Part shown: positions 5,143-40,566 of the stretch, piece by piece
How positions within the stretch are numbered: the stretch's first letter is position 1
Layout of the letters: every line of letters starts with the position of its first letter
Assembly (NCBI RefSeq): GCF_000025005.1
Contig: NC_013525.1
Span: 1,452,501 to 1,516,500 of the forward strand
Length of the DNA stretch: 64,000 nt
DNA from: Thermobaculum terrenum ATCC BAA-798
Lineage (GTDB): Bacteria; Chloroflexota; Chloroflexia; Thermobaculales; Thermobaculaceae
Direction: 5' to 3'
The notes under the pieces: generated by a model
What the model saw: the letters and a program-made list of their open reading frames with translations, nothing else
What the model was told of the DNA's origin: nothing
Databases searched by the model: none
Made by a program: the position numbers and the translations under genes

Positions 5143-7605
5143 CTATGCGGTTACAAGCTCCTCTTCAAGATGCAGCACTATCTCGTCGTCGTGAGCATCA
5201 ACCACTACTGTAGATCCTGGCTGGAACTTACCCTCAAGGACACCCTCAGCCAGTTTGTCTTCAACCTCTGTCTGTATCAACCTCCTCAGTGGTCGAGCAC
5301 CATAAGTTTGGTCGTAGCCTCTTCTGGCCAGCGTGTTTAGAGCTTCCTCGGTCAGCTTCAGCTGAATCTGCTGTTCAGCCAGGCGTTCCCTCACGCGATC
5401 AATCTGTATGTCTACTATCTTGCGTATATGCTCAGGCGACAACGAGTGGAACACTACCACAGCATCGATTCTATTCAGGAACTCGGGCCTGAAGTGCTTC
5501 TTCAGCTCACTCAGAACCTTGTCCCTCATGTTCTCATAAGCCCTCTGTTGGGCCTTAGCCTCATCGGTACGGATCGTAAAGCCTACTGTCGTATCTCGGT
5601 TGATCATCTCCGCACCGATGTTGCTGGTCATGATTATGATTGTGTTACGGAAGTTTACCCTCCTACCCTTGGCATCCGTAAGGTGACCATCCTCCAGTAT
5701 CTGGAGCAGCATATTGAATGCCTCTGGGTGAGCCTTCTCTATTTCATCTAGAAGTATGACAGAGAAGCTCTTCCTGCGGACAGCCTCTGTCAGCTGGCCA
5801 CCCTCTTCATATCCAACGTATCCTGGAGGAGCTCCAACCAATCTCGCTACCGCATGCCGCTCCATGAACTCTGACATATCAATCTTGATAAGAGCGTCTT
5901 CGCTACCAAACATGAACTCGGCAAGCGTCTTAGCGAGCTCAGTCTTACCAACTCCAGTAGGGCCAAGGAATATGAAAGAACCTACTGGCCGCCTTGGGTC
6001 TTTCATACCTGTCCTGGCTCGACGCACGGCCCGAGCCACAGTAGTGATAGCCTCATCCTGGCCCACGATGCGCTTGTGGAGCTCTTCCTCCATCTTCAGG
6101 AGCCGCTCCGACTCTTCACCAGCTATCCTAGTTAGAGGAATGCCAGTCCACATGCTCACTACCTGGCTTATATCCTCTTCGGTTACATAAGGCTCCTCAG
6201 CTTGTTGTTCTTCCTGCCACTGCTGCTCAAGCATGCCTATTCTTTCCTGAAGTCTCTCTTCGCGGTCACGGAAAGCAGCAGCCATCTCATAGTTCTGAGC
6301 ATTGATAGCGGCTTCCTTCTCGTCCTGTATCGCCTTCAGATGTCTGAGAGCATCCTTCAGGCTTGGAGGACTTGCAGCCCTGTGCATCCTTACTCGGCTG
6401 GCAGCCTCATCTACCAGGTCTATAGCCTTATCTGGCAAGAACCTATCGGATACATATCGGGCAGCAAGATAAGCAGCAGCCTTCAGAGCCTCATCGGTAA
6501 TCTTGAGCTTGTGGTGAGCCTCGTATCTGGGTCTTACACCCTTGAGGATCTCGATAGTCTCCTCAACAGTTGGCTCTTCGACCATGACGGGTTGGAATCG
6601 CCTCTCAAGCGCAGCATCTCTCTCTATATACTTGCGATATTCATCCAGAGTGGTAGCACCTATAACCTGGATCTCACCCCTGGAAAGTGCTGGCTTGAGG
6701 ATATTGGCTGCATCTACAGCACCTTCAGCAGCACCAGCTCCCACTAGTGTATGGAGCTCATCTATGAACAGGATAGCTCCAGACTCCTTGATTTCAGCCA
6801 TAATCTTCTTGAGGCGCTCCTCGAATTCGCCCCTGTATTTAGTCCCTGCCACAAGAGCTCCCATATCTAATGAGAGCACTCTCTTGTTGAGCAAGGTGTC
6901 CGGCACATCGCAATTGACTATTCGCTGAGCCAGCCCCTCTACTATGGCTGTCTTACCAACCCCAGGCTCACCTATCAACGCGGGGTTGTTCTTAGTTCTC
7001 CTCGACAGGATCTGCATGACACGCTCGATCTCTTTCTCGCGACCCACTATTGGATCGAGCTTATCATTCCTTGCAAGCTCAGTCAGGTCAGTGCCTAGAG
7101 CATCTATGTAGGGTGTCTTTGTAGCAGCTTTACCCTGCTGCGAGTAGGCACTGCTCTGATTTATAACCTGCAGCACCTGAGCCCTTACCTTCTCAAGGTT
7201 CACGCCCAGGCTCTCGAGAACCCCAGCTGCTATGCCCTCACCTTCTCGCACTAGGCCAAGCAGGAGGTGTTCGGTACCTATGTAATGATGATTCTGCCTT
7301 TTGGCCTCATCAAAGGCGAGCTCTATTACCCTTCTGGCACGAGGAGTCAACCCAATTTCACCCTGAGGCGGTCGCTCACCCCTGCCTATGATAAACTCTA
7401 CAGCAGCTCTTACCTTTTGGAGCTGGACTCCCATGCTCGCAAGCACGCGCGCAGCTACACCATCACCCTCACGCACCAGACCTAGAAGTATATGCTCGGT
7501 GCCAATATAGTTATGATTAAAGCGCGCTGCTTCCTCATGGGCCAAGCTCAGAACCTTACGTGCCCTCTCAGTAAATCGATCGAAGCGTTCGCCTCTATCA
7601 CTCAT
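5143..7605 (-). CDS. clpC: ATP-dependent Clp protease ATPase subunit ClpC
   Basis: An 820-residue Hsp100 unfoldase that feeds substrates to ClpP. It has two N-terminal Clp_N repeats, each containing an [11 protein letters not shown]-like stretch (residues about 1-150), a first AAA+ domain with GEPGVGKT, a UVR-type middle coiled coil ([12 protein letters not shown] region), and a second AAA+ domain with GPTGVGKTE and the sensor region. The middle domain and length identify ClpC rather than ClpA or ClpB. ClpS, its likely adaptor, is encoded at 44884-45189. No ctsR, mcsA or mcsB genes are next to it, so the classic Firmicutes regulatory operon is absent. A GAGGGAG ribosome site lies before the ATG, and a sigma-70-like promoter lies at 7653-7681. 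Confidence 0.96.
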
Positions 7606-7746: not shown

Positions 7747-9042
7747 TTATTCTTCCCTTTCTCCTCCCTCCGCAGACTCCTCTTCCCCTTCGCCGGCAGC
7801 ATAGTCAGGCTCATCCAACTGTCGAACGCTCAAACCTATGCGACGCCTCTGCGTGTCCATTTTGATGACACGAAGCCTCAACTTGTCACCAACCTGTACT
7901 TTAGTATCTCCCAGCTCGGACATATGAACCAGGCCCTCTATGCCATCTTCTAACCTTACAAAAACTCCAAAGGGGGCTATCTGTGTCACCTCCCCTTCCA
8001 CAATCTGACCTACATCATATCTTTCCATTGCAGTGGCCCAGGGCTCTGGTTGCGTCCGCTTCATGCTCAGGGCTATTTTCTTGTGCTCGCGATCTATATT
8101 GAGCACCATGACATCAACCTCATCACCAGGCTTTAACACCTCGCTGGGATGGTTGATTCGCCCCCAAGATATCTCCGACAGGTGTATGAGCCCATCAGCG
8201 CCTCCTATATCTACAAAGGCACCGAAATCCGCAAGGCTAGTTACCCTACCCTTTACTATCTGTCCTTCACGTAGCTCCTCAATTAGTCGTTCTTTACTAG
8301 TTTCCTTTCTTTCCTGGGTGGCTATCCTCTCAGAGAGTATCAAGCGGTTACGCTTTCTGTTGACCTCTATTACTTTAGCTTGCAGTGTTCTGCCCACCAA
8401 GTTAGCAAGCTCAGACTGCCTATCAGCATCATTTGAACTGACAAGGAAGCTGATCTGAGAGGAAGGAATGAAGCCTCTTAGTCCGCCTAGATCTACGAGT
8501 AGTCCTCCCTTGTTATACCCCACAACCTTGCAATCGACGATCTCGCCGGTTTCAAGCTTCTGCTGAAGTTCACGCCACAAGCGCTCTGCTCTAGCCCTAT
8601 CTACAGATAGAACTATACGTCCCTCATTATCCTCACTGGCATTGAGCACGGAGACCACGATAGGCTGCCCCGGCTCAAGAGACTCCTTCTCTTCCTCGCT
8701 TAGCGTAGTCAACTCAGAGGCCGGAACTATACCTTCGCTCTTCCCACCCACATCCACTATCAGGTCGCCGTTATCGAACCCCATTACTACACCATCTACG
8801 ATCTCGTTTCGGTGCAGAGTCCGATAGTCCGCCTCCCCGCTAGCCAGAATATCCTCCATGGTGATATCTTCTTCTGGCTGGGAGTTTTGTTGCTCTCTTT
8901 GGGAGCGCGGATTGTTATCTTTGTCCTGTGAACCAGCGGATGGGTTACCCGAACCGCTGCCTTCTCTGTCTAACTCCTCGTTCTCTCCAGGAAAAGGATC
9001 GTTATAGTGTTGACCTGTGGTGCCCATGGATTCGTGTGTCAT
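7747..9042 (-). CDS. rpsA: S1 RNA-binding domain protein (ribosomal protein S1 homologue)
   Basis: A 431-residue protein with an acidic, disordered N-terminus (about 75 residues) and four S1 OB-fold repeats at roughly 77-150, 165-235, 255-325 and 340-410, with a short acidic tail. The third and fourth carry the typical VTSLADFGAFVDIGGADGLIH and similar cores. Four-repeat S1 proteins replace the six-repeat proteobacterial S1 in many other phyla, where they may help mRNA binding on the 30S subunit. The start follows GGGAG-ATAA. Its leader holds a consensus promoter and two competing hairpins (9056-9112), so control at the RNA level is likely. No cmk gene adjoins it. Confidence 0.9.
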   Translation of the reverse strand: MTHESMGTTGQHYNDPFPGENEELDREGSGSGNPSAGSQDKDNNPRSQREQQNSQPEEDITMEDILASGEADYRTLHRNEIVDGVVMGFDNGDLIVDVGGKSEGIVPASELTTLSEEEKESLEPGQPIVVSVLNASEDNEGRIVLSVDRARAERLWRELQQKLETGEIVDCKVVGYNKGGLLVDLGGLRGFIPSSQISFLVSSNDADRQSELANLVGRTLQAKVIEVNRKRNRLILSERIATQERKETSKERLIEELREGQIVKGRVTSLADFGAFVDIGGADGLIHLSEISWGRINHPSEVLKPGDEVDVMVLNIDREHKKIALSMKRTQPEPWATAMERYDVGQIVEGEVTQIAPFGVFVRLEDGIEGLVHMSELGDTKVQVGDKLRLRVIKMDTQRRRIGLSVRQLDEPDYAAGEGEEESAEGGEREE

Positions 9043-9055
9043 TTATCTCCCTTTT

Positions 9056-9112
9056 GCCGTAAGTAGAACTAACGGCTCCGATGTGCGCCATTGGGTCGCA
9101 CTCGTGAGCCGT
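9056..9112 (-). promoter_or_regulatory. Structured 5' leader of the S1 gene with two competing hairpins
   Basis: Hairpin I: ACGGCTC/GAGCCGT (9072-9078 with 9106-9112) closes a 4x4 internal loop and an inner stem GTGCG/CGCAC (9083-9087 with 9097-9101). It begins within two bases of the predicted transcript start. Hairpin II: bases 9056-9064 pair with 9068-9076 (eight of nine positions pair, 3-base loop). Both hairpins need the same GCCGT segment (9072-9076 read on the minus strand), so they exclude each other. Hairpin II ends just before the AAAAGGGAG ribosome site. This pattern suggests a regulatory switch, possibly S1 autocontrol, but that is inference. Confidence 0.6.
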
Positions 9113-9120
9113 CTGCTGAC

Positions 9121-9149
9121 ATTATAGTAAATTAGGGAATACCTATCAA
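9121..9149 (-). promoter_or_regulatory. Consensus sigma-70 promoter of the S1 gene
   Basis: On the minus strand TTGATA and TATAAT are separated by exactly 17 bases. This is one of the best promoters in the window. The predicted start is near 9114, so the leader is about 72 bases. Confidence 0.82.
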
Positions 9150-9195
9150 CGAAAGCTCGAAAGGCAAGACATATGAGCTATTGGAATAAATTTCA

Positions 9196-40439: not shown

Positions 40440-40440
40440 A

Positions 40441-40482
40441 ATAAAAGCTCCTGCTTTTTCCGCAAGGCGGCAGGCAGGAGCT
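40441..40482 (-). terminator. pyr attenuator terminator that also masks the pyrR ribosome site
   Basis: On the minus strand AGCTCCTGC pairs with GCAGGAGCT (9 bp), with an inner CCGC/GCGG stem, followed by TTTTATT. The GGAG in the 3' arm (complement of 40448-40451) is also the ribosome site for pyrR. An alternative antiterminator can form, because GCAAGGC upstream (minus strand, near 40525-40532) is complementary to GCCTTGC inside the terminator. Confidence 0.85.
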
Positions 40483-40529
40483 TAGGCTAACAGACATATT
40501 TATATAGCTATAGCCAGATTGTCCTTGCC

Positions 40530-40553
40530 TTGCCAGCCTCACGGGACTGGATT
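40530..40553 (-). promoter_or_regulatory. PyrR-binding loop (anti-antiterminator)
   Basis: On the minus strand AGTCCCGTGAGGCT (40535-40548), with CCAG/CTGG closing pairs, agrees well with the conserved PyrR-recognised loop (a purine-rich GNGAGG core within AGUCC...GGCU) seen in Bacillus pyr leaders. It lies upstream of the terminator as expected. Confidence 0.85.
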
Positions 40554-40566
40554 TAAAGGCTAACTG

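Follow-up and report, generated by a model that had tools for sequence, protein, structure and literature searches.

The S1-type mRNA of Thermobaculum terrenum is predicted from sequence to open with a real, selected RNA hairpin, H1, that probably serves to control the S1 gene. With the single strand that follows it, H1 may form a cis-acting element through which surplus S1 lowers its own translation, a reading that we put first but hold tentatively. It is based on sequence comparison, namely on the promoter, on H1 itself, on the conservation and compensatory changes of H1, and on its specificity for the S1 gene.

The S1-type gene and its leader

The window, the whole stretch of 64,000 nucleotides that was analysed, is part of chromosome 1 of T. 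terrenum YNP1, an organism with a growth optimum of 67 °C (PMC3035366). The S1-type gene lies on the minus strand with its ATG at 9042, and its four-domain product contains no counterpart of E. coli domain 6. No other full-length S1-type protein is encoded in the genome (one full-length match); a protein search of the genome contigs returned two distant relatives only. The protein scores under the NCBIfam cut-offs for 30S S1 (for NF005208, for instance, 337 versus 368 bits), so that a ribosomal status is likely and its place on the ribosome putative. Many genomes of families f6, f8 and f10 of the class carry at least two long S1-type proteins, against one in Thermobaculum. Elsewhere in the window, a PyrR binding-site RNA (Rfam RF00515, 54.3 bits against a cut-off of 54) was found on the minus strand at 40440-40563, directly before the ORF 40439-39879.

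Upstream of the S1-type gene, a strong promoter TTGATA-17-TATAAT matches 11/12 of the consensus, and transcription is therefore expected to start near 9114. The leader is then 72 nt long from this predicted start to the ATG, and H1 begins 1-2 nt past the predicted 5' end. The sequence and coordinates thus agree with the initial annotation, which had described a leader of about 72 bases with a hairpin at most two bases from the predicted start. A transcript start downstream of 9072, which the same annotation had set against its own reading, looks unlikely: the promoter, from which the start is predicted, is kept in 7/7 genomes of the order as TTGNNN-17-TATAAT before the S1 gene. The ribosome site AAAAGGGAG is SD-like, of moderate strength, and only partly paired in the predicted folds. 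The features are, in the direction of transcription:

9121-9149, minus strand: promoter, -35 TTGATA at 9149-9144 and -10 TATAAT at 9126-9121, spacer 17
9114, minus strand: predicted transcript start, +/-2, placed from the -10
9106-9112, minus strand: 5' arm of the H1 outer stem P1, ACGGCUC, 7 pairs, nearly invariant, with G-U variants and two lone mismatches
9105, minus strand: unpaired A bulging from H1, replaced by U in relatives
9102-9104, minus strand: 5' side of the H1 middle stem, CGA, pairing with UCG 9081-9079, C-G to U-A compensated in L009
9097-9101, minus strand: 5' arm of the H1 inner stem P2, GUGCG, covarying over five genus lineages
9083-9087, minus strand: 3' arm of P2, CGCAC, with compensatory changes
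9079-9081, minus strand: 3' side of the H1 middle stem, UCG, from the fold and relatives
9072-9078, minus strand: 3' arm of P1, GAGCCGU, including the GCCGU common with H2, from the fold and relatives
9056-9076, minus strand: second hairpin H2, GCCGUUAGUUCUACUUACGGC, 8/9 pairs, not conserved, probably incidental
9056-9070, minus strand: region separating H1 from the ribosome site, expected from the folds to be unpaired at 50-70 °C, putative S1/standby region by analogy with tisB
9047-9055, minus strand: ribosome site AAAAGGGAG, which reads AAGGGAG or AAGGAAG in the relatives
7747-9042, minus strand: S1-type gene, 431-aa protein with four S1 domains (Pfam PF00575, four stretches)

Predicted structure and stability of H1

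In the predicted fold, H1 starts with a G9113-U9071 pair and the 7 bp of P1, followed by the bulged A9105 and by CGA:UCG adjoining GUGCG:CGCAC with the bulged A9082. Beyond these come the bulged A9096, CC:GG and the loop CAAU. Modelled in this way, H1 would be a nearly continuous helix with bulged A's. The leader with its ATG folds at -29.7 kcal/mol (z = -4.54), and none of 200 shuffled sequences was equally stable. The hairpin that the initial annotation had placed at the 5' end of the leader is thus confirmed, whereas the architecture that it had drawn (7 bp, a 4x4 loop and 5 bp) scores only -19.5 kcal/mol and gives way to the best fold. As a small control, we folded the 62-nt leaders lying behind the best sigma-70-like promoter of the nine genes of the 64-kb window that have one. 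The S1 leader reached z = -5.5, while the others ranged from -0.4 to +0.8.

Conservation and covariation in the order

The sample of the order comprised seven genomes from five genera, treated here as genus-level lineages. In 7/7 genomes, the S1 start follows a promoter, a hairpin that begins near +1, a spacer and a ribosome site of the form AAGGGAG or AAGGAAG. Across the order, P1 (ACGGCUC/GRGCCGU) hardly varies: besides G-U variants, there are one A.C mismatch and one C.A mismatch. Judging from these seven sequences, it is kept mainly as sequence and not via covariation. The position of the H1 bulge and the nucleotides adjoining it are also conserved, and the next two pairs after P1 include one full compensation from C-G to U-A.

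The inner stem behaves differently from P1. On a structural alignment made by hand, 24 of the 25 cells of P2 pair, with 7 two-sided compensations over the five lineages. Permuting the P2 arms gave an average of 16.2 paired cells, and 24 was reached by 2 of the 120 permutations, the true pairing and one other. P2 thus shows the covariation among S1-gene leaders of relatives that the initial annotation had pointed to as a check. On a model-fitted alignment, two two-sided pairs were counted over the whole structure, a number reached by 19 of 500 shuffles; support is weaker on this alignment, in which P2 is misplaced in some members. Taken over five genus-level lineages, the sequence support for H1 from covariation is modest. 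Between genera, the S1 leaders resemble one another more closely (63%) than the 80 nt before clpC do (55%), against 48% and 47%, respectively, after shuffling. The GC-rich member L006, taken alone, gave an insignificant leader z of -0.1.

Between S1 and clpC, which starts at 7605 in T. terrenum, L005-L010 share a conserved ATGTCTRAGG-like block no more than about 75 nt ahead of clpC, perhaps the clpC promoter. In genus g2 it adjoins a long inverted repeat, GAGGGTTT...AAACCCTC, which may terminate S1.

We built a covariance model, R1, from the leaders of all seven genomes of the order. By construction R1 recovers these 7/7 leaders (E 7.6e-14 to 2.7e-22), with one significant match each, at the S1 start. 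Among 158 genomes of the class, no other match fell below E 0.03, the next best having E 0.03. In a 400-genome sample of the phylum, in which two of the seven were included, R1 found S1 leaders and one further weak match (E 0.005). Rfam 15 gave no match at E up to 10 in 9000-9180, and none at gathering score in the relatives.

S1 leaders of sister families

The S1 leaders of families f7 and f12 of the same class also carry a hairpin from about +1, of a different build from that of the order. It consists of P1 (GUGUC/GRCAC type), a short 5' loop, P2 (GCUAACC/GGUUGGC type) and RAAWCU in the 3' loop, the conserved loop bases being GGC-RAAWCU. We analysed these leaders in an alignment, A5, from which variable apical loops were removed and in which one A was dropped from the ribosome site of rows G015 and G130. 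In A5, 91.4% of cells pair (0/500 shuffles), slid controls collapse, and 12 cells show two-sided changes against 3.8 after shuffling (0/500); part of this support is expected, since the structure was chosen from the same sequences. A second model, R2, recovers S1 leaders outside its training set in G129, G021, G050, G128, G122, G124 and G042 and, more weakly, in G121, G030 and G048, with two matches away from S1 leaders (E 1e-4 and 2e-3). The f7/f12 leaders (L062-L080, L104-L106) are covarying, S1-specific and not in Rfam, and their motif is probably a better r-leader candidate than the leader of the window.

R1 found nothing convincing on the f7/f12 leaders (best 12 bits, E 0.15), and R2 did not find the leaders of the order. 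As neither model recognises the other's leaders, homology between the two was rejected. In the few f6, f8 and f10 leaders tested, no strong +1 hairpin was seen. The f9 leaders show similar +1 hairpins by eye, with a mean z of only -1.05, and MAFFT/RNAalifold gave no consensus for them. Many of them (L082-L103) open with a hairpin of the GCUUUCC / GGRAGC type, after which come a GCG-rich, U-rich stretch and AAGGAAGG, and they may represent a third type of S1 leader.

Proposed autocontrol and its main rivals

In the mechanism that we propose, the S1-type mRNA would open with the conserved, bulged H1, with a largely unpaired segment and then the ribosome site downstream of it. Free S1 protein would bind H1 and the adjacent single strand, at the site where S1 bound to the 30S subunit would otherwise anchor the ribosome, and surplus S1 would in this way reduce translation of the S1 mRNA. 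H2 would have no conserved part in it. S1 would thus be the ligand and repression the effect, presumably acting on initiation. Autocontrol by the S1 protein, put forward by the initial annotation, remains the function of first choice, and the second, unrelated motif of f7/f12 lends it further weight; the E. coli precedent which that annotation had invoked is weak as a mechanism. Because two unrelated, S1-restricted +1 structures occur in one class, control by the gene's own product seems the best explanation, as it is for other ribosomal-protein genes (PMC7247131). The f6, f8 and f10 leaders count against it. With greater reserve, we suggest that the class possesses two or more S1-specific leader RNAs of unrelated structure at the extreme 5' end of the transcript, that of the order and that of f7/f12 with its conserved RAAWCU loop. 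Both would be operators through which S1 proteins control themselves by way of structured RNA, unlike the E. coli mechanism.

The main rival is protection of the 5' end: H1 would be a 5'-terminal mRNA stabiliser that, by pairing the first bases, blocks 5'-end-dependent decay without any ligand. We consider this unlikely, though deserving serious attention. H1 is a stable hairpin that in T. terrenum begins 1-2 nt away from the predicted 5' end and in all members of the order lies close to it, which is where a stabilising stem-loop would be expected, and E. coli ompA and other mRNAs are stabilised by 5' stem-loops (Emory 1992; Bouvet and Belasco 1992; listed in PMC3997798). Matches to RNase Y and RNase J were obtained in T. 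terrenum, and none to RNase E/G; the RNase J enzymes of B. subtilis have 5'-3' exonuclease activity (PMC7509114). A stabiliser would also explain why sister families share the position of the hairpin but not its sequence. However, such a hairpin is missing from the remaining promoter-borne leaders of the window, and the P1 sequence, the bulge position, the adjacent nucleotides and the f7/f12 loop bases are all conserved beyond what a clamp needs. We infer that autocontrol by S1 is to be favoured over a generic stabiliser because S1-specific leader structures recur.

Alternatively, H1 and the following single strand could be a ribosome standby or enhancer element that raises S1 translation without feedback. 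The layout resembles that of tisB, where a 5' structure and a single-stranded region are needed for S1/30S binding (PMC7708055), and the moderate SD would fit such a role. This reading is nevertheless rather improbable: the tisB ribosome site is strongly sequestered while that of T. terrenum is only partly paired in predictions, and inspection by eye of the five lineages revealed no conserved complementarity between the H1 loop and the tail, and hence no conserved pseudoknot.

Proposed alternating structures

In L005, L007, L008 and L010, the H1 5' arm GGCUCUC could base-pair with GGGAGCU, made up of the ribosome site and the bases that come next; T. terrenum has lost this complementarity. A switch could be drawn from it, in which the P1 5' arm alternates between H1 and the ribosome site and hides the site when H1 opens. 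In the four remaining genus lineages, the corresponding duplexes have energies from -8.6 to -12.3 kcal/mol, with p values of 0.009 to 0.135 against shuffled arms. In T. terrenum the duplex is absent (-3.1 kcal/mol, p 0.75), the arm and the SD show no compensatory change, and likeness to an anti-SD is expected of any CUC-rich arm, all of which makes this switch very improbable.

The initial annotation had read the leader as a switch of two mutually exclusive hairpins, H1 and H2 alternating and competing for GCCGU. Its description of the sequence was accurate: both hairpins can be drawn, H2 is present in T. terrenum with 8/9 pairs, and ACGGC occurs twice on the minus strand, at 9112-9108 and at 9060-9056, each copy complementary to GCCGT 9076-9072. 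H2 is also rare by chance in this genome, being matched by just 21 of 20,000 shuffles of the tail. The switch itself was not upheld, since H2 is neither conserved in the order nor thermodynamically appreciable. The downstream ACGGC partner is found in T. terrenum only, and H2 is missing from three of the five genus-level lineages, so that the two helices are not conserved together: no such hairpin forms in L005 or L009, and that of L006 reaches only -2.3 kcal/mol. Genus g2 has a weak counterpart of 5 pairs at -4.3 kcal/mol, which is equalled by about 12-15% of shuffles. When enforced, H2 trails H1 by 6.5 kcal/mol at 37 °C and by 5.3 kcal/mol at 65 °C (5-6.5 over 37-70 °C). At 65 °C, the five GCCGU:ACGGC pairs of H2 are predicted to form with a probability near 0.001, an occupancy of about 0.1%. 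H1 moreover comes first in transcription, the ribosome site is occluded by neither hairpin, and no terminator-like site follows. A switch conserved in the order is thus ruled out by conservation and energy, and alternation of H1 and H2 is extremely improbable. Given how rarely shuffles match H2, it might still have a species-specific role in T. terrenum. Transcription attenuation was rejected, no terminator-like site being present downstream on the minus strand.

Comparison with known systems

Autocontrol of S1 has been worked out in gamma-proteobacteria. In E. coli, S1 represses its own mRNA (Boni and co-workers; reviewed in PMC10931766), and this repression requires domain 6 of the protein and the absence of a canonical SD (PMC10931766). 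Like the T. terrenum leader, the gamma-proteobacterial rpsA leader precedes an S1 gene, contains conserved hairpins and probably offers S1 a target ahead of the start codon. The E. coli translation initiation region, however, has a specific fold with AU-rich single strands between hairpins and acts with a six-domain S1, whereas T. terrenum has a single +1 hairpin, the SD-like AAAAGGGAG and a four-domain protein, and does not share the defining traits of the rpsA operator. Because its S1 lacks a counterpart of domain 6, the E. coli mechanism is not simply transferable. No S1 leader outside gamma-proteobacteria was found in the main texts of the open-access literature.

The r-leader motifs of Eckert and Weinberg (2020, PMC7247131) are similar in being lineage-restricted, conserved RNAs directly upstream of one r-protein-type gene, with unrelated structures serving the same gene in different lineages. 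The S1 leader of the order likewise shows a covarying structure (in P2, the whole-structure count being weaker) and lies only upstream of an r-protein-type gene (7/7, with nothing else in the class at E < 0.01 and one weak match in the phylum). It differs in that the motif rests on seven genomes only. None of the 20 new motifs of these authors belongs to S1 (PMC7247131).

In the E. coli tisB mRNA, the S1-binding site is formed by a 5' structure and a single strand (PMC7708055). The T. terrenum leader shares with it a 5'-terminal structure and an adjacent single strand as a candidate site for anchoring S1, but tisB relies on a pseudoknot, and its ribosome site is distant and sequestered. The ompA-type stabilising stem-loops resemble H1 in lying a few bases from the transcript start, and differ in that the conservation of sequence and bulge seen in the order would be unneeded for a clamp.

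If the autocontrol reading is true, a structured operator combined with a four-domain S1 would show that a general RNA-binding protein has another route to recognising its own mRNA, besides the one that depends on a sixth domain and a missing SD. The two motifs, both outside Rfam 15, supply concrete sequences and compensatory pairs, and a heat-stable protein-RNA system would suit structural work.
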